A stretch of 46,066 nt of DNA from a virus, in IMG/VR virus record IMGVR_UViG_3300035698_020066, positions 1 through 46,066 of that record; one strand, written 5' to 3'. The position numbers and the translations under genes were made by a program. The stretch's first letter is position 1; each line of letters opens with the position of its first letter. Below the pieces are notes generated by a model that did not search any database, was not told the DNA's origin, and saw nothing but the letters and a program-made list of their open reading frames with translations. Below are positions 2,938-22,782 of this stretch, one piece after another.

Positions 2938-5181
2938 ATGTCCGAAAATATCAAAAATACAATGAAAGTATACCAGGTACCAATAGATGACCTAAAACCT
3001 AACACAAGGAATCCAAGGAAGATAACCAGAACTGAATTAAGGAAGTTAACCAGGAGCCTAAACGAATTCGGTTTTGTAGATCCAGTAATTGTCAATACCT
3101 TCCCAGGTAGAGAGAACATCATAGTAGGAGGACATCAAAGAGTTCAAGCAGCAAAGAAACTCAAGATGAAGAGTGTACCAGTAGTATACGTTAACCTGGA
3201 TGAAGACAAGGAAGAGATGCTCAACATAGCACTGAATAAGATATCAGGTGAATGGGATGATGACAAGCTGATGGAGATCCTGGTATCACTGAACGAGAAA
3301 GGGCTGGATAGTACAATGACAGGGTTCGATGAGAGTGATATAGACCAATTCATGGAACTCAATAAGAAGGAAGATAAAGAGCGCATGATAGATCAAGCAC
3401 CACCACCACCCGATAAGCCCAAAAGTAAGCCAGGAGAGATATACCAGCTTGGAAATCACCGATTGATGTGCGGGGATTCAACCAAGGAGGAGCATATGAA
3501 GGCCTTGATGGGTGAAGACGTTGCAGACATGGCATGGACAGATCCACCATACGGAGTAAGTTATGAAGGTGGAAAGCACCCTACCAATAAATACTGGGAC
3601 ATGATGGTCAATGATGATATTACAGGAGATTCATTATATCAGATGTTAACACAAATATATACAAATATCCATAAATGTAGCAAAGACAACGCAGCACTCT
3701 ACACCTGCTACGCAATTTTCAATCATACAATAATTGAGAAATCCCTGATTGAAGCAGGATTCTTAATAAAACAGCAGCTTATATGGGAGAAGGGGCACGT
3801 CCTTGGCCGTAGCGACTATCATTGGTGCCATGAACCTTGCCAGCCTGCAGGAACGATGGTAAGAAAAGTGATTAATCCTCGTTCAACAGAAAAAGGCAGA
3901 CAGGGATCATTTTCATATTGTGAGGAAGTACCCATAGAGTCATTGAAAGAAGGGGATTTAGTAGTTAGCTATGAACCCAGAGGTTGCGTAGTTCATACTC
4001 GTGGAAGAAGAATCAAAGTTGCAAAAAGGAATTATAAGGGAGATTTAATCTCGATATATGTGGATGGAAAAAGTACTAAAGCAACCGATGCACATAAATT
4101 TAGCATTAGAATGGCAGAATCAAAATCAGATAAACAAACAATATATCTCATGAGGAAGGGGGATTGGTGGAGGATTGGCCAGGTTAAATTATATAATAGT
4201 AGAGGATTTGGTTTAGCATCACGTTTGACAGATGAAAAAGCAGACGAAGCATGGATAATAACGACTGCCGAAAATGTATTGGAAGCAAGAATGCTTGAAC
4301 AAGCATTATCATGCAAATATAGTATTCCAACAACACACTGGACAATCGATAATTTTAGCCCTAATCCTGAAAAAAGGAGAACACATAAACATATCAATGC
4401 AATTTACGATATAATAGGTACTGATAGAATATTTACGGGGGCAATGCAAATATTAAAAGATTATCATAGGAATTCAAGGTATCCTATTGTAAAAAAAGAA
4501 GATCCTAAATGGTTCAGTAGAAGGATGAGCAGACTGATCCATTCTTGTAATATTTGCCCAGGAATAATGCAATTACCCATCCCTACAGAAGGTGAGAAAT
4601 TTGAATGGAAGACAATAAGACATATAGAATATAATGCATTTTCCGGAGAGGTATATTCTCTTGATGTGAATAGGGATGAGCATTATATCGCAGATGGCAT
4701 AATTACCCATAATTGCCTATACTGCAGGAAGAAGGAGCATAACACTGAATGGATGGGGGACCGGACCCAGCGCACAACCATAATGCAAAGCACAGTGGAG
4801 CAGCTGCAAGAGCTTAAGAAGGATGTAATTATTGAGATGATCATGCAGATACGCCAGGATAGCGATATCATCAAGGTTCAGAAAGACGCAGCAGTGAACT
4901 ATGTCCATTCAACCCAGAAGCCTGTAGGATTATCACTGAGGATGATCAAGAACAGCAGCAGGCCAGGTAACATAATCCTGGAACCCTGCGCAGGATCAGG
5001 ATCAACCCTGATGGCGTGCGAAACCACCAACAGGAGATGCTATGCTATGGAGATAGATCCCAGGTACGTGGATGTCATAATCCAACGCTGGGAGAATCAT
5101 ACAGGGGATAAGGTTGAATTGATTGAGGCGATTGAGATCAAGCAGCCAGAAGAGCAGAAAAAGGAGGAGGATCCTAAATGA
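2938..5181 (+). CDS. ParB-like nuclease/N4-N6 DNA methyltransferase fusion, intein-containing
   Basis: The precursor is 747 aa; without the intein it is 455 aa. Residues about 10-110 form a ParB/sulfiredoxin-like domain (…LKPNTRNPRK…, GGHQR at 64-68). Next come the methyltransferase motif DPPYGV (202) and, at the far end, the SAM-binding EPCAGSGST (682). DPPY before the SAM motif is the order of beta-class N6-adenine/N4-cytosine enzymes. ParB-methylase fusions are widespread in phages, usually next to terminase genes, as here. The methylation site cannot be read. The intein interrupts the conserved HEP^CLY segment before Cys593, so splicing is needed for activity. GGGAGG precedes the ATG. Confidence 0.9.
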   Translation: MSENIKNTMKVYQVPIDDLKPNTRNPRKITRTELRKLTRSLNEFGFVDPVIVNTFPGRENIIVGGHQRVQAAKKLKMKSVPVVYVNLDEDKEEMLNIALNKISGEWDDDKLMEILVSLNEKGLDSTMTGFDESDIDQFMELNKKEDKERMIDQAPPPPDKPKSKPGEIYQLGNHRLMCGDSTKEEHMKALMGEDVADMAWTDPPYGVSYEGGKHPTNKYWDMMVNDDITGDSLYQMLTQIYTNIHKCSKDNAALYTCYAIFNHTIIEKSLIEAGFLIKQQLIWEKGHVLGRSDYHWCHEPCQPAGTMVRKVINPRSTEKGRQGSFSYCEEVPIESLKEGDLVVSYEPRGCVVHTRGRRIKVAKRNYKGDLISIYVDGKSTKATDAHKFSIRMAESKSDKQTIYLMRKGDWWRIGQVKLYNSRGFGLASRLTDEKADEAWIITTAENVLEARMLEQALSCKYSIPTTHWTIDNFSPNPEKRRTHKHINAIYDIIGTDRIFTGAMQILKDYHRNSRYPIVKKEDPKWFSRRMSRLIHSCNICPGIMQLPIPTEGEKFEWKTIRHIEYNAFSGEVYSLDVNRDEHYIADGIITHNCLYCRKKEHNTEWMGDRTQRTTIMQSTVEQLQELKKDVIIEMIMQIRQDSDIIKVQKDAAVNYVHSTQKPVGLSLRMIKNSSRPGNIILEPCAGSGSTLMACETTNRRCYAMEIDPRYVDVIIQRWENHTGDKVELIEAIEIKQPEEQKKEEDPK
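3838..4713 (+). other. intein in the methyltransferase (292 aa) with GIY-YIG-like insert
   Basis: It begins at Cys301 with CQPAGTMV (block A), has TDAHKF (block B, Thr-x-x-His) and ends HYIADGIITHN before extein Cys593: a complete class 1 set of Cys1, His-Asn and Cys+1. No LAGLIDADG motif is visible. The central insert instead has TIYLMR, nine residues on RIGQ, an ASR segment and MLEQAL, which fits the GIY…YIG, Arg and Glu layout of GIY-YIG nucleases. The DNA is more AT-rich than the flanking extein, as expected of a mobile element. Confidence 0.85.
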
Positions 5182-6280: not shown

Positions 6281-6799
6281 ATGGCCGTACCAATACTGAT
6301 CCAGGAGAGAAGGCAGCAAGTCATGACGTTATACCTGCAGGGAATCAAGCAGGAAGAGTTAGCAAAGCAATTCAACCTGACCACCAGGAGCATAAGAAAG
6401 GATGTCGCATCCTGCAGAAGACAGGAAGCCAGAACCATAACTAAGAAGAAGAAGGAGGAAGTCCTGGCAGAGCTGAAAGCCAAGGCTGACCTAAGAAATA
6501 GGCAGATATGGTCAGTGCTGAGTAGCAGTGGGGTAACTAAGAAAGAGAAACTGAACGCCCTGGCAGCCCTTCAGAAGGAAGAAGAACTTGAGATCAAGCG
6601 GTACGAGAAAGCAGGCACACTCCCAAGGGATAGTGCGCAGGTGGAGATTAATAAGAACGATATCAGGACTGTCACTATAAACATAATTGAACCTGGAGAA
6701 GAGAAAACAGAAGATGTCAAGGAACATAACGATCAATTGGAAGCCAAGCCAGAAACAGTACCAAGCCTACAAGATCCTGCACGACAACCAGACGACTGA
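6281..6799 (+). CDS. terS: terminase small subunit (HTH DNA-binding)
   Basis: The 172-aa protein begins at ATG 6281 (an upstream ATG at 6269 would lie within the previous gene). Residues about 10-45 form a helix-turn-helix (QVMTLYLQGIKQEELAKQF, then NLTTRSIRKDVA), as in terminase small subunits that recognise viral DNA. The middle is a long charged helix for oligomerisation, and the C-terminus is acidic and probably contacts the large subunit. Its end overlaps the large terminase start by about 86 nt. Position and HTH make the call; sequence alone does not prove it. Confidence 0.75.
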   Translation: MAVPILIQERRQQVMTLYLQGIKQEELAKQFNLTTRSIRKDVASCRRQEARTITKKKKEEVLAELKAKADLRNRQIWSVLSSSGVTKKEKLNALAALQKEEELEIKRYEKAGTLPRDSAQVEINKNDIRTVTINIIEPGEEKTEDVKEHNDQLEAKPETVPSLQDPARQPDD

Positions 6800-9700
6800 A
6801 TTATTCTACGGTGGAGGTGCAGGTGGGGGCAAGGCGCAGCCATTATCCAGTAAAGTTCTAACTTCTGAAGGATTTAAGTTAATGGGAGTGATCAAGGTAG
6901 GGGATCACATAATAACTCCCAATAATGAAAAATCCAAGGTAATTGCTATCCATTTTCAAGGAAGACAATTAGTATACAATATCAAATTTATCGACGGATC
7001 ATCCACCAAATGCACTGATTCTCATCTATGGGATTGTTGGCCTGCAAGACATAAGAAAAATCGTAAGTTAAGGACAACCTCTGAGATAATAGAAATTATT
7101 AGTAGGGGGAAGAACATCATTATCCCTCTATCAAAACCCATAGAAATGGGTAAGCATTACACCAAGATCCATCCTTACCTAATAGGTGCATTGCTGGGAG
7201 ATGGAGGACTTACCGAGAATAGCATCACATTCACATCTGCAGATCAAGAGATAATAAATAGAATTAAGCTAATTCTCCCTTTAACTCACCATATCAAATA
7301 TAGAGAAAGATATACCCACATCATCAAGTGCGGTATGCATAACGAAAAGGGATATCCAACCAATCCCATGGTAGATGAACTTCGCAGGATAGGTATGATG
7401 CCATGCAATGTAGGAAACAAGAGAGTACCTGAATTTTTATTACACTCCTCTATTGCAACCAGAATATCAATCATCAAGGGACTGATGGATACGGACGGCA
7501 CCATAGATAGTAGGGGGCATTGTAGCTTCACTTCTAAGTCAAAAGGATTATGCAAAGACCTACAATACTTGTTATGGAGCATTGGTGGGAAAGCCACACT
7601 GACCCAAAAGAAGAAATATTGCACTTACAAGGGGGAGAAGAGGGGAGGAATATATCATGAATTATACATCGTCACCAAAAACAATAGCCAGATATTCTCA
7701 TTGAGCAGGAAAATTAAGAGGGTGAAGGGATACAATGGAGGATATGAGCTTGGAAGACGGATTAAATCAATTGAACCGTGTTCTGTAGAAAATTGCCAGT
7801 GCATAAAAATAGAAGATCCCAAAGGATTGTACCTGACAGATGACTTCATAGTAACGCATAACACGTACCTCGGATGTATCTGGCTGACAGAACAATGCCT
7901 GAAGTTGGAAGGATCCAGGTGGATCATGGGCAGAGCAATTCTTAAGAACTTGAAGGCATCAACTCTCCTGACATTATTCGCAATAATCAAAGATTGGGGC
8001 ATGCAGATGGGGGTAGATGTCAAATATAACAGCATTGAGGGTGTGCTAAAATTCTTTAATGGTAGCGAAATCTACCTGAAGGACTTATTCCATTACCCAA
8101 GCGATCCAGAATTCGATAGCCTGGGATCAACTGAATACACAGGAGCATTCATCGATGAGGCATCACAAATAACGGTCAAGGCCAAGAACATCCTCATGTC
8201 CAGGATCAGGTACAAACTTGAAGAATTCGGCACAATCCCCAAGCTGCTGATAGCAAGCAATCCAGCGAAGAACTTCTTATACCACGAATTCTATAAGCCA
8301 TGGAAGGCAGGGGTGTTGGTATCATATCGACAATTCCTAAAGGCCCTGGTGACTGATAACCCCTTCATAAGCCCTCACTACATAGAGAATTTAAAGAAGC
8401 TGGATAAGATAAGCAAAGAGCGTCTTCTTTATGGGAATTTTGAGTATGAAGATGATCCAGCCTGCCTTATGGATTATGATAAGATCCTGGACATATTCAG
8501 CAATAAGTATGTGGAAGAGGAAGATCAAGAGCGATACATGACAGTGGATCCGGCACGTTTCGGTCAAGATCGTGCAGTCATCTACATATGGTACGGATTA
8601 TACGTCAAGCATGTCTATGCATGGCCCAAGACCACAACCACATTTCTTGAAGATGAGATGGAAAAGCTTGCGAAGATCCACAAGATATCTCGCAGCAACA
8701 TGGTTGTGGATGAGGATGGGGTAGGGTGCATAACTCCAGAAACAATGATCCTTACAACTGATGGATGGATGGAAGCAAGAGAAATCAAGATAGGTCAAGA
8801 AATATATGGTAAAGATGAGGAGGGTAATGTTACACCATACAAAATAATAGAGAAACGTTCAATACCTGATGAAACTATCATAAGGGATGGGGGAGGTTTA
8901 GCATTCAGCAAGAGTCATTATATCCCCAGGAAATCAAGAAATAATCACAAATACCATAATGAACCATGGGACTCAATAATGAATAAGAGCATAAGTTACT
9001 TTGACACTGAATTCAAATGGGGAGGAACAAGGCAATCAATAATAATCCATTCAACAGAATACGAAATGCCTCACGGAGGTATAAAAAAATTGAATAATGG
9101 CGCAGTATGCTCAGATAAAGCATTTGCAAGATTCCTAGGTTGGTTCTTATCAGAAGGATGTTTTTATCAGAAATACATCCTGATAAGTCAATCAGTAAAA
9201 AGCCCTCACAATAATAGAATAAGGGACGTTATCAGGTCTTCAGGTTTGAGATTTCATCAGAAAGTGCATAATGAAGAAATATCTTATAATATAGGCCATA
9301 AATGGCTACATCAATGGTTAAGGGATAATTGTTATGTATCTCATGAACACAATGCGCTAAACAAATGCATACCTGAAATATTAAAAATAGCGGATAAAGA
9401 AGTGATTAGTGTTTTCCTTGATGAATTTATGAAGGGGGATGGATATCTACATCATGGTAAAAATTATTATGGAACCTCAAGTAAGACCCTATCAAACGAC
9501 CTTCTGGAGCTCATAATCAAAGCAGGCAGATATGGCAATATTTATCTTAAGAATAAGAAAGGATCGAAGGGGAACATATTCGGAAGAGAAATAACAAGAA
9601 CTGCAGACCATTATTGCGTGTTTGAATGCCGAAAAAATAAACAAATAATCCGTCCTAAGGACCCCATAATAAGTCATGGAGAGGTAATATTCTTTAGAAT

Positions 9701-10154
9701 GGCTGGAAAAGTTAAGCAATACTACACACGATTCCCTGGAAAAAGGCCATTCTGGACACATAACGGTGGCATTGTCGACCACATGCCTGGGGTGAACGGA
9801 TTCGTCAACAACAGCCGTCCCAGGGATCAAGGTGAAGAGCTAACCAATTATAAAAATTTGAAAAGTCAGTGCAGCTTCAAGCTGGGAGAGATGGTCATGG
9901 CAGGCAAGATTGGTGCAAATGTTGAGGATCCCGAGATTAGAGAATTGATGATTGAAGACCTGGAACAGTTTAAGAGGAAGGATATTGATAAGGATGATAA
10001 GAAACTGTCAGTGATTGAGAAGGAGTTAGTCAAGCAGAATATCGGAAGAAGCCCAGACTTTGGTGACAATTTCATGATGCGTATGCTTTTCGAGGTTGGG
10101 AGGTATAGCCTTGGATTCCTGCAGGATGATGACAACGTGACAGGGTTGATGTAA
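6714..10154 (+). CDS. terL: terminase large subunit, interrupted by two inteins
   Basis: Precursor 1146 aa; exteins sum to 457 aa, normal for this packaging motor. The Walker A motif GGGAGGGK^TYLG (residues 33-40, then 384) is split by intein 1. Walker B is AFIDEAS (Asp481-Glu482). The nuclease domain has VDPARFGQD (Asp612) and VVDEDGVG (666-671), the latter split by intein 2 from GGIVDHMPG. The end carries GRSPDFGDNFMMR, typical of the family. Start: ATG 6714 is preferred over TTG 6687 because GGAGAAG lies nearby and the adenine-binding region begins right after. Both catalytic centres are broken without splicing. Confidence 0.95.
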   Translation: MSRNITINWKPSQKQYQAYKILHDNQTTELFYGGGAGGGKAQPLSSKVLTSEGFKLMGVIKVGDHIITPNNEKSKVIAIHFQGRQLVYNIKFIDGSSTKCTDSHLWDCWPARHKKNRKLRTTSEIIEIISRGKNIIIPLSKPIEMGKHYTKIHPYLIGALLGDGGLTENSITFTSADQEIINRIKLILPLTHHIKYRERYTHIIKCGMHNEKGYPTNPMVDELRRIGMMPCNVGNKRVPEFLLHSSIATRISIIKGLMDTDGTIDSRGHCSFTSKSKGLCKDLQYLLWSIGGKATLTQKKKYCTYKGEKRGGIYHELYIVTKNNSQIFSLSRKIKRVKGYNGGYELGRRIKSIEPCSVENCQCIKIEDPKGLYLTDDFIVTHNTYLGCIWLTEQCLKLEGSRWIMGRAILKNLKASTLLTLFAIIKDWGMQMGVDVKYNSIEGVLKFFNGSEIYLKDLFHYPSDPEFDSLGSTEYTGAFIDEASQITVKAKNILMSRIRYKLEEFGTIPKLLIASNPAKNFLYHEFYKPWKAGVLVSYRQFLKALVTDNPFISPHYIENLKKLDKISKERLLYGNFEYEDDPACLMDYDKILDIFSNKYVEEEDQERYMTVDPARFGQDRAVIYIWYGLYVKHVYAWPKTTTTFLEDEMEKLAKIHKISRSNMVVDEDGVGCITPETMILTTDGWMEAREIKIGQEIYGKDEEGNVTPYKIIEKRSIPDETIIRDGGGLAFSKSHYIPRKSRNNHKYHNEPWDSIMNKSISYFDTEFKWGGTRQSIIIHSTEYEMPHGGIKKLNNGAVCSDKAFARFLGWFLSEGCFYQKYILISQSVKSPHNNRIRDVIRSSGLRFHQKVHNEEISYNIGHKWLHQWLRDNCYVSHEHNALNKCIPEILKIADKEVISVFLDEFMKGDGYLHHGKNYYGTSSKTLSNDLLELIIKAGRYGNIYLKNKKGSKGNIFGREITRTADHYCVFECRKNKQIIRPKDPIISHGEVIFFRMAGKVKQYYTRFPGKRPFWTHNGGIVDHMPGVNGFVNNSRPRDQGEELTNYKNLKSQCSFKLGEMVMAGKIGANVEDPEIRELMIEDLEQFKRKDIDKDDKKLSVIEKELVKQNIGRSPDFGDNFMMRMLFEVGRYSLGFLQDDDNVTGLM
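6834..7862 (+). other. terminase intein 1 (343 aa), class 3-like with LAGLIDADG nuclease
   Basis: It sits between Lys40 and Thr384 of Walker A. It begins with Ala (AQPLSSKVLT) rather than Cys or Ser. The class 3 triplet appears present: Trp in block B (TDSHLW), Cys in block F (QCIKIEDP) and Thr in block G (VTHN). Extein +1 is Thr, as allowed in class 3. LIGALLGDGG and GLMDTDGTID are the two LAGLIDADG motifs of a homing endonuclease, which appears intact. Confidence 0.9.
8727..9764 (+). other. terminase intein 2 (346 aa), non-canonical +1 Gly
   Basis: It starts at Cys672 (CITPETMILTTDGWM, block A), has a LAGLIDADG pair (FLGWFLSEG and FMKGDGYL) and ends GKRPFWTHN. The next extein residues are GGIVDHM, restoring the conserved GVG-GG nuclease loop. 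The +1 residue is therefore Gly, not Cys, Ser or Thr as the standard splicing reaction needs. No alternative junction near the end restores the terminase sequence. Confidence 0.85.
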
Positions 10155-15380: not shown

Positions 15381-15655
15381 TGACATCACAAATCGATATC
15401 TGGAAGGCAAAGGTTGGATTTAAACTGACAAGATGGATAGGAGAGATTCTACCTCACAGCATGAATTATATCCGTTGCAAAAAATGCGGCAGTCCAGCGG
15501 TGGATTCGATATACCACAAGACAGGAACAGGATATTCACAAAGGACATACAAGAAATATTCATGCCTTGAATGTGGTGCAATATCATGCAGAGCAGATCA
15601 TGTCCTGACAGAGAAGCATCATAAGCGGTACACTAAAGACCTGGAAGCATACTAA
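15377..15655 (+). CDS. zinc-ribbon protein, 92 aa
   Basis: Two C-x2-C pairs (CKKCGSP and CLECGAI) separated by about 28 residues form a typical zinc ribbon, with a final Cys and two His after them. The N-terminus is amphipathic with KVGFKLTRWIGE. It overlaps both neighbours by 1-4 nt, so it is part of the surface-protein cassette. Its job between two exported proteins is unclear; a regulator or assembly factor is possible. Confidence 0.6.
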   Translation: MMTSQIDIWKAKVGFKLTRWIGEILPHSMNYIRCKKCGSPAVDSIYHKTGTGYSQRTYKKYSCLECGAISCRADHVLTEKHHKRYTKDLEAY

Positions 15656-18600
15656 TGGAATACAAATCAATAGCAGTAGAAGGATCAGTGATAGGCATAG
15701 CGATCATAGCCATCCTCATATTTCTCAATTATCCTGTAACTGAGCAAAGTTACTTCTGCGAAGCCGAGCCTATGGATCCAATGGAATGCGAGTATGGCAT
15801 ATCAGGGGGGAGCGGGACACGATGTTATCAGAAAGAGGATATCAAATCAGGTTATGAATACTGCAAGACTGGATGGAAAAGGATGTTTGATCACATCGAG
15901 CCAATCATCGTGCCGATAGTAGAACCCATTGAAGGGCAGCTAACCATCACCCAGGCATCCTACATCGGAAAGACCAAATGCTCAGGGCAGGAGTGCCTTG
16001 ATTGGAAAGAGGATATCAATCATAAGACTGGCGAGGTATGCTTTGATTATCAGGGCAAGATAGCCCTCACAGAGATAACCGTCAAGACTTCTAATGAGGA
16101 TAATAATGTATCACTGGTGAGCAAGAGAATCTGCATGGCAGGTGAAGAGCTTATCAGGATAGGGAATGGCACAATCCAGGTAGGACCAGTGAAGCAGATA
16201 ATCCTTAACAATAATGAGCATCAGACGAACATCACAGTCATATCGAATGGTGTGTACCAAAATCAGATAAGGGTTCATGTTAAGGATGGGAAGCAAGCAT
16301 TCAGCGTGAACATTACCGATGTGACTGAAGACACAAGGTTTACTATCCAATTACGATCAACCGATGTCCTGAAGCGGAGAGGGACAGCATACGGATACAT
16401 ATCTGAAGATAAAGGGATAGCGCAAGTTTGGGATATGTTTGATTTCTATGACTTGGTTAATTTGACGATGTGGATGGACGGTAGTAAGGAGATAGATATC
16501 ACCGCCACAGCGGTGTATGATGCGAAGAAGGGTGTGGCTGAAGCTGATCCCATATATGAGCGAGTGGCATCATCAAAAAACTATTTTAATCAGACATATT
16601 ATAATGCATCCACTGGAGGAATTGAATTAAATTCATCGTTCTCAGAAGGGCACACTTTCATGGCATTCAACCTTACAATGAACGGAACTACTCAATATGT
16701 TCATAACATAACCATTATAGCGACTGACCCAACAGCAGTAAGGATAAGGCCATATGGAGTTAGGAAACCCTGGGATAAGGATATGGTGTATCATGGTTTG
16801 ATGATGGGGGGGGATGAAGCAAAAGATTATTTGGGGATAATGACCATGACCTATGATATGTCTGATCCAACTGGAACTGCGAACCAAACCCCTTTCGGAA
16901 TTTCATTCGATGATTCAATCAATGGTGGGGCAGGGGATAGGATTGTTGAATTAACATCCACTTCTGATGATATATTTAATTCGTTTAGAGAAGAGGGTGA
17001 CTTCGGCATTTATGTCGATGCTTTGATTAAGGTATACCAAAATAGTGACATTTTGGTAAGGGCTGAAAATATTGTATTGTTAGATATTAGATCAACAGGG
17101 ATAAGACTTTATATTTGGAATGAAGACACAACCTGTATCCAAGCAACAACCGCTGACGCTCCAGCAGGATCAAGGCATTTGATAGTAGCGAACAGGAACG
17201 CTTCTGGTTGGGGGCAGTTGTTCGTTGATGGTGTTTTGAAAGATCAAGAACCTTGCATCGGTGCCTGGACTGATTCAGAAAGCCTTTTCAGTATAGGATC
17301 AGACGGAGGATCATCAGAGTTCAGCGGTGAATTGTATGAAGTTCTTATAAGGAATAGTTCCTTCACATATGAAGAAGCAGTCAATATGACCAGGGGAGAT
17401 TATAATGTTACGCAAGGCCAGACAGAATACACTCCAGACTCTAATGGATTTATTGATGTGTCGAGTGAGATAGTTCTTCAAAATATAACTCACATGAATC
17501 TGGACATAAAATCAATCGCTAATGCCAACATCTCAGTAATAAATATCGGATTCGGAACTGAGCCAAAGACCTCGGTAGTTATCCCAGACACAGCAGCACC
17601 CAGTTTTATTGTAGAACCTTATAACTCTACAACCACCAATGAGTCTGTAACGATACCCTGGACAGCAAGCGAAGCTGTGAATTATACAGCAAGGATAACC
17701 GATAGTCCTGATTACACAGGGGGCACTTTAATCAGTGATGATACTGATTGCACATCATGTAGTCAAGAATTCACATCACTTAATAATTTAACCAGGTATT
17801 ATGTAAACATTTCAATATGGGATCCATCAGGGAACTGGAACACCAGCAACACATCCTTTATGACATCACAAACCCTAAAGGATATAATCCCACCATTTAT
17901 CACTTTAAGATCATTGGTCAGCAGGACGAATGAAACTATCAAAGTAAGATTAAATTATTCCGAGGTATCAAACGCCACGATGGCTGTGGGAATTTGTCCA
18001 TCTCATGCAGGCATTAATTCATTCACGGATATAACATTCACAGCGAACAAAACATATGAAATTTCCAATTTAATAAATAATACATACTACTGCTGGAACG
18101 TGACCTCATTTTCAGATAACTTAGGGAACATGAATGATTCAGGCTATAATTTTTCATATCAAACATCAAAGACAGCAGTATTGAGCGGGCAAGATGAATG
18201 CGTGGTAGACCGAAGTTGTTGTAAAAATATCGGATTAAATTATCTATGTTTCAGGAACGATAGTGATCCCACGATACCTCAAACATCCGATAACATTGCG
18301 ATCAAAGATTTTAACACTTCAGATACAAAATATGCGTATCTGCATTACAGAGGATCAATATTTAAAAAGTTCGATTCAGATAACCAGGAGTATGGGTTTG
18401 GTAACATACAAGCCATAGGTTATGCAAGCGATGGTCTTGCAATAGAAGTCAGTGCGAACGGCCAAATATTGAATAATGTTGATAATTATTTATGGAGTCC
18501 GGACAGGATGATTATACATGATATATTTACCAATTTTGAAGTGGAAATTCAATCATCACCAATATCCAATTATTCATTTATTACAATGGGTCGTATCAAT

Positions 18601-21600
18601 TGTACCTCTGCGACTGATTGCAAATTTTCAATAGATTTTGATAAATCAAGCGGTGCCCATGATTATAATTTAACTTACGTTGAGAATGTCGTAGGAGAGT
18701 ATGATGGTGTTTTAATAACATTTTACCTGACTACCACAAGGAGCGCATCACACAATTATTCATTCTATCTACTGACCAACACCACTGTGGGATCCTTCAA
18801 TCAAACCCCTGATTCAGCTGGTGACGAGGCAGCATTATTCATTAATATCTCTGCTGGACATTACACAGACCTCGTATGGTTATTGACCACACCTGAAGAT
18901 TTACACCATGCAAAATACAGATTAGATAATCCCATAACCACATTTGAAAAAGCCAGTGATGATGTTGAAGATTTCCATAATATGTTTAAATATCCTGATG
19001 CAGCTAAAAATAACGAAGAAAAACTGAGATACTACAGAGCAATATACAATTACTGGTACTCCATAGTTTCAGACAATCGTACTGATTCTTATTGGGGGGA
19101 TCACGAAATAATATCACCAGATGGCATCCATTATGGTGGGGTTTGGATTTGGGATTCATTCTTCTCAGCAATAGGATTAATAGGATCATGCAAGAATTCA
19201 TCGCCTGAATGTTACCAAATGGCAAAGGATTGGGCGCAGGTTTTCATTGAGAACGCATGGGCAACAGGGCAATGGCCAAGGGAAGTATGGTCCAATTATA
19301 CAGGACTTTCATGGCAAGCTCCAGGTGGCTGGCCTTTCGTGTTATTGGAGATATACCAAAAGGATGGTGATTCAGAATTTTTATGTGATACTGCATACTC
19401 ATCATTAAAAGGTTTTCATAATTTCATTTATTCAACTAAAGATTCAGACGGTGACTTAGTATTCCAATGGGGAGGTACAAACTCAGGATGGGACGCATCT
19501 ACCAGATGGGAAGGAGGGGAGAAAGAAGCACTTGACATTCAAGGTTGGATGATTTTGGGTGCTGAAGCACTTGAGAACATTGCAGGAGTATGCAATGTGT
19601 CTGAACAGAACCATTGGCGTGAAAGGAAAGAGAATTATACAATCGCAGCACAGGGTCTTTGGAACAACTCATTATTTTATGATAACACTCCTGCGACAAA
19701 CGTCCCATCCCTTGTCAAAGGAGTAGCAGTTATAAGCCCTGCCATGTATTTCATGATGTTTGCAAATGTCACAAACATCACCCAGGAAGAGGCAATAATA
19801 ACTGAACTTCACAATCCTGATACAATAGGGGTATGGGAACATAACATTATTAATCCCACAATCTCAAGATCGCACCCAGGCTACAAAAACGGTTCAGCGT
19901 GGAACGGATCAACATGGATGAACATTAATGGCGTGGCATGGTTAGGATTGAAGAGGCAGGGGTATGAAGCCGATGCAAATTATTTAAGGAATTATTCAAT
20001 GTTACCAATGTTAGACGATTTTATAGGATTTGAATGTTACAACTCAAAAAGTGGTGAATTATCAACATCATACAATCATGTCCCCTATATGTGGTCAGAT
20101 GCGATTTATTTGGCTATGATGCATAATTGGACACCATCATACGCAACGGTGGCAGCCACCACCAATGACACCCAAGGAGTTCTTAATCAATGGATTACAT
20201 CAGTCACCAGGGGCAGCAATGACACATTATCCGTCCCAGCATTCAACTCAACCGATGCAGACGGTGATACTATCACATACTGGGTTAATTCAACCATCCT
20301 ATCAATCAACGACTCAGGTTGGATAAACGATTCAGTCATACCAGAATCAGACGCAGGAGTATACTCAATCAATATGACGGTGAACAGCTCCGGTGCAATA
20401 TTCGGGTCAAAGATATTCACTTACACGATACTTGATAGAACCCCTCCAGTCATCAGAAACATATCGAAAACCCCATCAGATTTGCAACAGAATAGCACTG
20501 GATTATTGGAATTAATATGGAACGTTTCGGATCATTCTCAAATAAATTATTCAGATATAACAATTTCATTCCTTCTTGAAGATGAAGATGGTAATGCCAA
20601 TTACTCTCATATCAGACCACCGACAAATGATAAAGCATACACATTCTTCGATGTACATGGAGATGAATATAGAATCCTTCTCGCAGATGGTAGAGGAGAT
20701 AACAAACCTTATGATAATTATAAAATTGATGGAGAACCTTTATTTCCTGATAATTATTCGCACATAGTTGTGAATAATGGTAGTATATATTTGACTATAA
20801 CCCCTTGGCAGCATTCAGGATTGTACGGTGCAATCGTAAACTTCTCAGACATAGTGGAGACAAGGATATTTAGGTCAGAAGTAAAACTGTCAAGAGGTAG
20901 AATGGAGAAAGCTGAGAAGCATGATAAAATCATAATTGATAAAACATCCCAAGGATTATTCAAGTTCTGGATGCAACCGTCAATGGTTGGCAAGTGCAAT
21001 TATACCACCATTGCAATGCAAAACATCAATTACACTGACACCCCGAACAAGGTATTAGATTTGCGTGTTTGTAATAATACATACTATGATTCGTGTACGG
21101 TCACAGCAACAGGATTAACATGTCCTCAGACATGTATTGAAGATACAGATAATTGCGTGTACTTGAATAATCTTCAATTGGCAGCACTTCAAGCTCCAAG
21201 AACTTATACAACAAGAAATTCCAGCTACCTTCGAGGCGAATATCCTATTACCAATGATGAATTTGGTGGAGTTCATATTGAAGATTCAGTTTATCTATGC
21301 CTCACATCAAAATCATCACAATCTAAAGGATCGTATGTTGTAAGGTGTGCTAACACATCATCAGGGACAAACGTATCATTCCATGATACTATGACATCCT
21401 GGACAGGCGATGGCACAACCATGACCAATACATACTGCACAGCGGACTTGTGGTTGGCTCATGCAGTGGAAGGAGATCATTCAATCATAGGAATATTTGC
21501 AACCGACACTCACGGCAACAATAAAAGTGAATTGAACATGATACATGATGATATCGGCGATGTCAATCATCCAGTATCAATACCAAACATTGAAAGCTAC

Positions 21601-22782
21601 GCATTAGGGCGTTATGTCTTCGGTGATGAAAGTAATGAAAATAATGATTTGAACGGGACGTATGCAGGAATAATGACACTTCATGTAAACATAGGGGTAG
21701 ATGCTGACGGCTCATGTGCTAACCACACTTTATATCTTTATAACAATTCCAAGTTTTACCAAGAAATTAATAATTCATTCTGTTCAGAAGATGGGAGCGA
21801 TATGCACATATTCGTTGACACGACTGAACATCCAGACGGTGATGCATACACATATAACATCACAGCCACAGGGTTCACAATCACTGGTGAACAAGATGCA
21901 GCTGACAGGCAATCAACTTTGATAACTTCAAACTTCACCATAGATAATACTGCACCAAGCGTGACATTGATATCCCCACCCACCACTCAGATTAATCAGA
22001 CAAGCATGGACATTACCTTTGTATGGAACTATTCTGAGAGGAAGATTGCAAACTGCTCCCTCATAATTAATGGAAGCATTGACCAGACCAATACAAGCCT
22101 GACGCAGAAGGCAGAGCAATACTTTCATAAGAGCTTCGCATCAAAGCAGACAATCAAATGGAACGTGACGTGCTATGATGAAGTTGGCAATGAAGGTGTG
22201 AGCATAGGAAGGATCCTGCAACTGAATTATACAATCGATGTAAGCAGCATCACATCCACATTGGTAAGCCCTGCAGATAACGTTCTGAACGATACAGGGA
22301 CATTTAACATGACATGCTCATTCATCGCATTGAAATCAGGTGGTAAGAACATAACTTTATGGACCAACCACACAGGGACATGGGGATCATACGCAACGCA
22401 GGATGTCACAGGAGAGAGTGGAAGTGCAAGCATCCTGCTGACAGGAGTGCCCAATGGGACAACATTCGCATGGAACTGCCTGGCATGTAACAACATGACG
22501 AACTGCAGCTACGCACCAGCGAACCGCACAGCGACATACAGATTTTATAGGGACTTCGCAGAGCCAGTGCAGATCAAGAACGATGAAGATTCAACCCCAG
22601 GAATTGTACTATGGACTAATGGGAACCTGAACATAAGCGGAAACATGACCCTAAACACATTCTACCTACCAGCGCAGACAGCCACATGCCTCCCTGGGAC
22701 CATAACAGCCCATCAAAATTGGATATATCTCTGCAATGAAACGGCAGCATGGCGCAGGTTATTCGTGCCAGTATGGACATAA
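15655..22782 (+). CDS. giant surface protein with LamG-like, FN3 and GH37/GH63-like glycosidase regions
   Basis: 2375 aa. Residues 10-30 form one membrane helix (VIGIAIIAILIFLNY). Next come a Cys-rich section, a LamG/concanavalin-like domain (about 420-570, GQLFVDGVLKD, LYEVLIRNSSF), FN3-like repeats (about 644-850) and an (alpha/alpha)6 glycosidase region (about 1140-1490). That region has VWIWDSFFSAIGL (1163), SGWDASTRW (Asp1280, like the trehalase acid) and FECYNSKSGEL (Glu1460). A cadherin-like and further Ig-like domains follow, with many sequons. It is probably an anchored or virion depolymerase or receptor protein; catalysis is inferred. Confidence 0.75.
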   Translation: MEYKSIAVEGSVIGIAIIAILIFLNYPVTEQSYFCEAEPMDPMECEYGISGGSGTRCYQKEDIKSGYEYCKTGWKRMFDHIEPIIVPIVEPIEGQLTITQASYIGKTKCSGQECLDWKEDINHKTGEVCFDYQGKIALTEITVKTSNEDNNVSLVSKRICMAGEELIRIGNGTIQVGPVKQIILNNNEHQTNITVISNGVYQNQIRVHVKDGKQAFSVNITDVTEDTRFTIQLRSTDVLKRRGTAYGYISEDKGIAQVWDMFDFYDLVNLTMWMDGSKEIDITATAVYDAKKGVAEADPIYERVASSKNYFNQTYYNASTGGIELNSSFSEGHTFMAFNLTMNGTTQYVHNITIIATDPTAVRIRPYGVRKPWDKDMVYHGLMMGGDEAKDYLGIMTMTYDMSDPTGTANQTPFGISFDDSINGGAGDRIVELTSTSDDIFNSFREEGDFGIYVDALIKVYQNSDILVRAENIVLLDIRSTGIRLYIWNEDTTCIQATTADAPAGSRHLIVANRNASGWGQLFVDGVLKDQEPCIGAWTDSESLFSIGSDGGSSEFSGELYEVLIRNSSFTYEEAVNMTRGDYNVTQGQTEYTPDSNGFIDVSSEIVLQNITHMNLDIKSIANANISVINIGFGTEPKTSVVIPDTAAPSFIVEPYNSTTTNESVTIPWTASEAVNYTARITDSPDYTGGTLISDDTDCTSCSQEFTSLNNLTRYYVNISIWDPSGNWNTSNTSFMTSQTLKDIIPPFITLRSLVSRTNETIKVRLNYSEVSNATMAVGICPSHAGINSFTDITFTANKTYEISNLINNTYYCWNVTSFSDNLGNMNDSGYNFSYQTSKTAVLSGQDECVVDRSCCKNIGLNYLCFRNDSDPTIPQTSDNIAIKDFNTSDTKYAYLHYRGSIFKKFDSDNQEYGFGNIQAIGYASDGLAIEVSANGQILNNVDNYLWSPDRMIIHDIFTNFEVEIQSSPISNYSFITMGRINCTSATDCKFSIDFDKSSGAHDYNLTYVENVVGEYDGVLITFYLTTTRSASHNYSFYLLTNTTVGSFNQTPDSAGDEAALFINISAGHYTDLVWLLTTPEDLHHAKYRLDNPITTFEKASDDVEDFHNMFKYPDAAKNNEEKLRYYRAIYNYWYSIVSDNRTDSYWGDHEIISPDGIHYGGVWIWDSFFSAIGLIGSCKNSSPECYQMAKDWAQVFIENAWATGQWPREVWSNYTGLSWQAPGGWPFVLLEIYQKDGDSEFLCDTAYSSLKGFHNFIYSTKDSDGDLVFQWGGTNSGWDASTRWEGGEKEALDIQGWMILGAEALENIAGVCNVSEQNHWRERKENYTIAAQGLWNNSLFYDNTPATNVPSLVKGVAVISPAMYFMMFANVTNITQEEAIITELHNPDTIGVWEHNIINPTISRSHPGYKNGSAWNGSTWMNINGVAWLGLKRQGYEADANYLRNYSMLPMLDDFIGFECYNSKSGELSTSYNHVPYMWSDAIYLAMMHNWTPSYATVAATTNDTQGVLNQWITSVTRGSNDTLSVPAFNSTDADGDTITYWVNSTILSINDSGWINDSVIPESDAGVYSINMTVNSSGAIFGSKIFTYTILDRTPPVIRNISKTPSDLQQNSTGLLELIWNVSDHSQINYSDITISFLLEDEDGNANYSHIRPPTNDKAYTFFDVHGDEYRILLADGRGDNKPYDNYKIDGEPLFPDNYSHIVVNNGSIYLTITPWQHSGLYGAIVNFSDIVETRIFRSEVKLSRGRMEKAEKHDKIIIDKTSQGLFKFWMQPSMVGKCNYTTIAMQNINYTDTPNKVLDLRVCNNTYYDSCTVTATGLTCPQTCIEDTDNCVYLNNLQLAALQAPRTYTTRNSSYLRGEYPITNDEFGGVHIEDSVYLCLTSKSSQSKGSYVVRCANTSSGTNVSFHDTMTSWTGDGTTMTNTYCTADLWLAHAVEGDHSIIGIFATDTHGNNKSELNMIHDDIGDVNHPVSIPNIESYALGRYVFGDESNENNDLNGTYAGIMTLHVNIGVDADGSCANHTLYLYNNSKFYQEINNSFCSEDGSDMHIFVDTTEHPDGDAYTYNITATGFTITGEQDAADRQSTLITSNFTIDNTAPSVTLISPPTTQINQTSMDITFVWNYSERKIANCSLIINGSIDQTNTSLTQKAEQYFHKSFASKQTIKWNVTCYDEVGNEGVSIGRILQLNYTIDVSSITSTLVSPADNVLNDTGTFNMTCSFIALKSGGKNITLWTNHTGTWGSYATQDVTGESGSASILLTGVPNGTTFAWNCLACNNMTNCSYAPANRTATYRFYRDFAEPVQIKNDEDSTPGIVLWTNGNLNISGNMTLNTFYLPAQTATCLPGTITAHQNWIYLCNETAAWRRLFVPVWT

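Follow-up and report, generated by a model that had tools for sequence, protein, structure and literature searches.

The second insert in the large terminase (TerL) gene of the window (the whole stretch of DNA that was analysed, 46,066 nucleotides) is quite probably a working, mobile intein that gave up the nucleophile at the +1 position and splices by aminolysis, using the amine of a Gly in that position. The observed basis of this reading comprises the junctions, the conserved residues Cys1, His64, Asn346 and Gly+1, a probable single origin of the Gly+1 inteins, selection and homing.

The TerL gene begins with ATG at 6714, ends with a stop at 10154 on the plus strand and was divided into three exteins and two inteins (Table 1). 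Its joined exteins were 36–49% identical to annotated TerLs, with 47–49% identity to those of Cellulophaga phage phi10:1 and Flavobacterium phage 11b. The first intein (6834–7862) differs from the intein at 8727–9764 and looks like a class 3 intein: its block B His is followed by Trp, F:4 is Cys and the C-terminus reads THN. Elsewhere in the window, a 747-aa protein (2938–5181) combines a ParB-like domain with DNA methyltransferase domains (phrog_498), and a 2375-aa protein downstream of the head genes (15655–22782) carries an MGH1-like glycoside hydrolase domain (residues 1163–1473, E 1e-17).

Table 1 The terminase gene of the window, its two inteins and the parts of the Gly+1 intein (nucleotide positions in the window)
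Feature	Position	Strand	Basis
Large terminase subunit gene (TerL), three exteins and two inteins	6714..10154	+	ORF; identity of joined exteins; fold of a relative
First TerL intein, in Walker A (GGGK^T), Ala1, Thr+1	6834..7862	+	coordinates; class 3 marks read from the sequence
End of the N-extein, DEDGVG (nuclease domain, second acidic motif)	8709..8726	+	alignment; L010 model
Gly+1 intein, 346 aa, HINT splicing domain and LAGLIDADG homing endonuclease	8727..9764	+	translation, Pfam, fold, homologues
Block A with Cys1, CITPETMILTTDGW	8727..8768	+	every Gly+1 intein has Cys1, Thr6 and Thr10
Block B; S-x-x-H with conserved His64 at codon 8916-8918	8889..8927	+	alignments
First LAGLIDADG motif, FLGWFLSEG, acidic residue kept	9132..9158	+	alignment
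Second LAGLIDADG motif, FMKGDGY, acidic residue kept	9426..9446	+	alignment
Blocks F and G; F:4 Phe, penultimate His345, terminal Asn346, WTHN end	9684..9764	+	alignment with Ser/Cys+1 sister inteins
Gly+1 Gly+2, C-extein start (GGIVDHM)	9765..9770	+	sequence; Gly+1 in 10/10 records

The junctions of the second insert were read from the codons: TGC at 8727–8729 encodes Cys1, CAT AAC at 9759–9764 the terminal His-Asn and GGT GGC at 9765–9770 Gly+1 and Gly+2, with the reading frame open throughout 8727–9764. An earlier, sequence-only reading of the stretch had given the insert Cys1, a WTHN end and Gly at +1, all of which were seen in codons and translation, and had regarded the borders as fixed, since joining the exteins rebuilds GVGGG. 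The alignment to intein-free TerLs that it had proposed as a check was run and confirmed the junction: the joined flanks read VVDEDGVGGGIVDH and align without gaps to the DEDGVGGG of phi10:1, 11b and Versailles and the DDDGVGGG of P12002L. The +1 codon, in which a Cys, Ser or Thr was looked for, is GGT (Gly), and the alignment did not move the junction onto a nucleophile. Downstream of the junction, Cys, Ser and Thr are absent until Ser at +17, and no nearby nucleophile is thus able to replace the +1 residue. A shifted junction was ruled out, as the ends are pinned by the block A Cys and the terminal His-Asn, with no nucleophile close by; a single-codon sequencing error behind Gly+1 was ruled out by independent contigs.

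For placement of the insertion site, the intein-free relative L010 was modelled together with 25 others. The L010 model matched Sf6 gp2 and T4 gp17, and its nuclease part matched the nuclease domains of Sf6 and E217 TerL. Strand 316–319 of the model ends in the near-invariant Asp of DEDGVGGG, and a helix begins at 324, the insertion point. By comparison with T4 gp17, this Asp is the counterpart of the nuclease site's second acidic residue, and the insert thus splits the nuclease core. At the position equivalent to +1, the 80 nearest intein-free TerLs had Gly (56), Gln (17) or Phe (5), with one gap and one unmapped; since Cys, Ser or Thr occurred there in none of the 80, an ordinary intein is not expected to work at this site.

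The insert with six-residue flanks was modelled with AlphaFold2 together with ten family members, and the model of the insert had a mean pLDDT of 89. Foldseek matched it to solved inteins with LAGLIDADG endonucleases, with TliVMA (7qsu; E 3.6e-17) as the best match and the yeast PI-SceI also found. In profile searches, the Pfam family LAGLIDADG_3 was weak in the window's intein and clear in its relatives. By sequence, the closest solved splicing domain was gp41-1 (6qaz; E 0.008), which has Ser at +1; the structure 2lwy, from a bacterial intein-like (BIL) domain, followed behind it as a weak match (E 0.29).

Nine further intein records were found at the same DxxGVG^GG site (L091, L124, L126, L130, L136, L139, L144, L153 and L185). 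Together with the window they make up ten records in six lineages (below 50% identity) and three TerL groups, L139 being a near-copy of L136 and the L124 and L126 inteins being 98% identical. Their host TerLs match different families (Terminase_3 and Terminase_6N), with intein identities of 36–45% across the TerL groups and exteins about 25% (22–27%) identical. The tabulation of +1 among relatives at GVG^GG, also called for by the sequence-only reading, gave Gly in 10/10 records; Cys1, the penultimate His and the terminal Asn are likewise present in all ten. The host frames are open in every record, the inteins are 335–352 aa long with a LAGLIDADG endonuclease, and the C-terminal end is THN in nine records and VHN in L185, where Thr G:5 is replaced by Val.

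Some of the searches for Gly+1 relatives presupposed part of the answer; others were blind to +1, namely two by internal peptides and one with any residue allowed at +1. The last scan, by the endonuclease motif only and thus blind to junction and TerL, recovered four clade members including L185, all with Gly+1. None of the ten records, a small set of metagenomic contigs from one collection with no cultured phage, had Cys, Ser or Thr at +1. The window's intein as single query gave no match among viral contigs, two pattern-limited scans of 84,980 bacterial and archaeal species genomes gave no clade member, and isolated phages and plasmids yielded distant relatives only. Terminal-pattern matches such as L117 and L119 were set aside as chance matches in other genes.

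A tree was built from the Gly+1 inteins and eleven inteins with Cys, Ser or Thr at +1. The Gly+1 inteins formed one clade (support 84/91), sister to seven Ser/Cys+1 inteins, and with this moderate support a single origin of the Gly+1 inteins is probable from the aligned sequences. At the C-terminal junction, two differences between the clade and the seven sisters are complete: the penultimate residue, which is His in 9/9 Gly+1 inteins vs Gly in 7/7 sisters, and +1, which is Gly vs Ser or Cys. Ser or Ala stands in block B of the clade in place of the usual Thr, and position F:4 varies among Phe, Tyr, Asn and Ser and is never Asp or Cys. The absence of Asp or Cys at F:4 was dropped as a trait of the clade only, as F:4 is Gly in L158 and L159, two P-loop (GK^T) inteins with Cys1, Thr+1 and a C-terminal THN. 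A P-x-(K/R)-(S/T)-R motif after block B (8925–8939 in the window), Trp81 and Asp93 are invariant in all Gly+1 inteins and do not occur in the sisters; perhaps they serve DNA recognition. In contig L091, at 7645–8649 (minus strand), the portal-like gene downstream of the intein-bearing TerL contains a canonical intein, related to the sister clade, whose +1 residue is Cys and whose penultimate residue is Gly.

Selection and movement were read from the pair L124/L126, whose inteins gave dN 0.012 and dS 0.074, compared with dN 0.038 and dS 0.80 for the exteins. The nucleotide identity of the pair steps at the intein borders, from about 0.8–0.9 in the exteins to about 0.98 within the intein. The contrast in dS and the step in identity point to a recent horizontal transfer by homing, into a gene on which purifying selection is strong. 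The acidic endonuclease motifs SEG and GDG are invariant across the Gly+1 inteins which, judged from their sequences, are mobile homing inteins in a conserved catalytic site.

Compared with the recognised classes, the Gly+1 inteins have the Cys1, the C-terminal Asn (with penultimate His) and the HINT blocks A, B, F and G of class 1, but Gly takes the place of Cys, Ser or Thr at +1 in 10/10 records. Class 2 inteins combine Ala1 with Cys+1, where the present ones have Cys1 and Gly+1; class 3 inteins have a non-nucleophilic residue 1, Trp-Cys-Thr and Cys at F:4, whereas here Cys1 is present and F:4 is Phe, Tyr, Asn or Ser. With A-type BILs (e.g. 2lwy) they share Cys1 and a C-terminal His-Asn with no need for Cys, Ser or Thr at +1 (PMC4031507). 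By the size and placement criteria for A-type BILs (PMC9185962, PMC5874633, PMC7765530), however, these are 130–155 aa long (PMC9185962) and sit in variable regions of non-conserved proteins (PMC5874633), whereas the Gly+1 inteins have 335–352 aa (346 aa in the window) with a homing endonuclease, lie in the conserved DxxGVGGG of TerL, a catalytic motif of an essential phage enzyme, and have an invariant Gly+1. Two LAGLIDADG motifs with their acidic residues and horizontal movement (L124/L126) are those of homing inteins. The Gly+1 inteins are not BILs, though they would be BIL-like in working if the mechanism is right; the most apt name for them is a Gly+1 variant of homing inteins.

Among individual systems, the sister class 1 phage inteins (Prevotella phage Lak-A1, the TerL of Gordonia phage GMA6, the L091 portal-like gene) resemble the Gly+1 inteins in their blocks and endonuclease type and differ at four places: their +1 residue is Ser or Cys, the penultimate one is Gly, F:4 is Cys or Asp, and block B has its Thr. 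The gp41-1 intein shares the S-x-x-H of block B and the THN end, but has about 125 residues with a block F Asp (PMC12245125) and no endonuclease. Mycobacteriophage TerL inteins are also found in large terminases, and those tested splice and some cut DNA; unlike the present ones, all of them lie in the ATPase domain (PMC5050341). The TerL intein of Microcystis phage Mic1 is in the nuclease domain as well, but at another site and with Cys+1 (PMC7156551). Word searches of the open-access literature found no report of a natural Gly+1 intein, a result that is not proof of absence.

In the proposed route, Cys1 together with His64 of block B would form a thioester to the N-extein ending in Gly-Val-Gly. 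Asn346, aided by the penultimate His345, would cyclise without a branched intermediate, by which the bond before Gly+1 would be cut. The folded precursor would keep the exteins together, and the alpha-amine released at Gly+1 would then attack the thioester, forming a Gly-Gly bond and releasing the intein, and the ligated product would carry DEDGVGGG with the junction peptide DEDGVGGGIVDH. Gly on both sides would be the least hindered pair for such an aminolysis. Ligation and every chemical step of this route are what we infer from the sequences. A thioester, Asn cyclisation and direct attack of the amine were proposed for A-type BILs; when these were tested, splicing was poor and cleavage products prevailed (PMC4031507), and a review describes them as unable to ligate (PMC7765530); efficient ligation by aminolysis is therefore without strong precedent. 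For gp41-1, the THN end leads to fast C-terminal cleavage with many +1 residues tolerated, and the block F Asp restrains cleavage (PMC12245125); in the Gly+1 clade THN is present in 9/10 records and the block F Asp in none.

The main rival to aminolysis, which we consider unlikely, is that the insert cleaves itself at both ends without ligation, leaving a terminase that functions as two non-covalently associated fragments. Without a +1 nucleophile, ligation would by default be expected to be lost, BILs mostly cleave (PMC4031507, PMC7664689), the kept Cys1 and Asn would also be compatible with it, and fragments broken between two Gly in a strand–helix turn might re-associate. The cut would fall, however, directly after the strand with the conserved Asp of the nuclease core, a split nuclease would have to be tolerated in three divergent TerL groups, and the recent move into another TerL gene needs tolerable function at once. 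The first intein, situated in the ATPase P-loop, needs true ligation, so that the protein already relies on splicing. The sequence-only reading had named an alternative splicing route, cleavage only and a dead gene as the three possibilities; the comparative data favour the first over the second, while ligation is not demonstrable from sequence alone. As a further variant, a branched intermediate might form on an internal Ser, Thr or Cys acceptor instead of +1, as a mirror image of class 3, whose inteins show an internal residue replacing the terminal nucleophile (PMC4031507). Conserved Cys, Ser and Thr residues in the splicing part comprise Cys1, a pair of Thr in block A (common to the sisters) and Ser/Thr70 (Ser in the window), the last of which is conserved in the clade and not in the sisters; Thr G:5 of THN, present in 9/10 records, would be another acceptor. 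But Thr G:5 is Val in L185, position 70 lies along the strand away from His64, six residues from it on the same strand of the model and probably too far, and the final amide-forming step by the Gly amine would still be needed. As the alignment with the sister inteins gave no convincing conserved candidate for a substitute nucleophile within the Gly+1 inteins, we regard an internal acceptor as quite improbable.

An intein that is dead or dying, with the terminase a pseudogene or supplied by another copy, has a very small probability. Only the textbook rule of Cys, Ser or Thr at +1 speaks for it, and against it stand the same site, Cys1, terminal Asn and Gly+1 kept in all ten records, the open frames, the signs of purifying selection and of recent homing, and the catalytic and endonuclease residues that are conserved, so that the dead gene of the sequence-only reading was discarded. 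Nor was a second TerL match found in the window's record, though this record may be a fragment. Removal of the insert at the RNA level is the least probable of all, close to negligible: no support was found for it, positions 8500–10000 gave no group I or II intron match (Rfam returned one weak snoRNA chance match), and the insert is in frame, with HINT blocks and fold.

Splicing through the amine of Gly+1 would depart from the three recognised intein classes, in all of which splicing proceeds via a branch formed on the +1 residue (PMC4031507). This chemistry would be new for inteins and not for the HINT superfamily, as it was already proposed for A-type BILs (PMC4031507). The Gly+1 inserts probably splice without a nucleophilic handle at +1, by a route that was not found described for true, mobile inteins. 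We lean towards the wider view that mobile inteins splicing efficiently without a nucleophilic +1 side chain, through Gly-Gly formation by amine attack, are a further mechanistic class, which colonises sites closed to all other inteins. If the first intein is class 3, one TerL gene would use two different non-standard splicing routes. If the proposal is true, it would also provide a tool that ligates Gly to Gly without a scar and leaves no Cys or Ser behind. That a homing clade in an essential enzyme always has Gly+1 would then show that the branch is dispensable in nature, and the aminolysis of BILs, mostly seen as a minor reaction beside cleavage, would become a route kept by selection.
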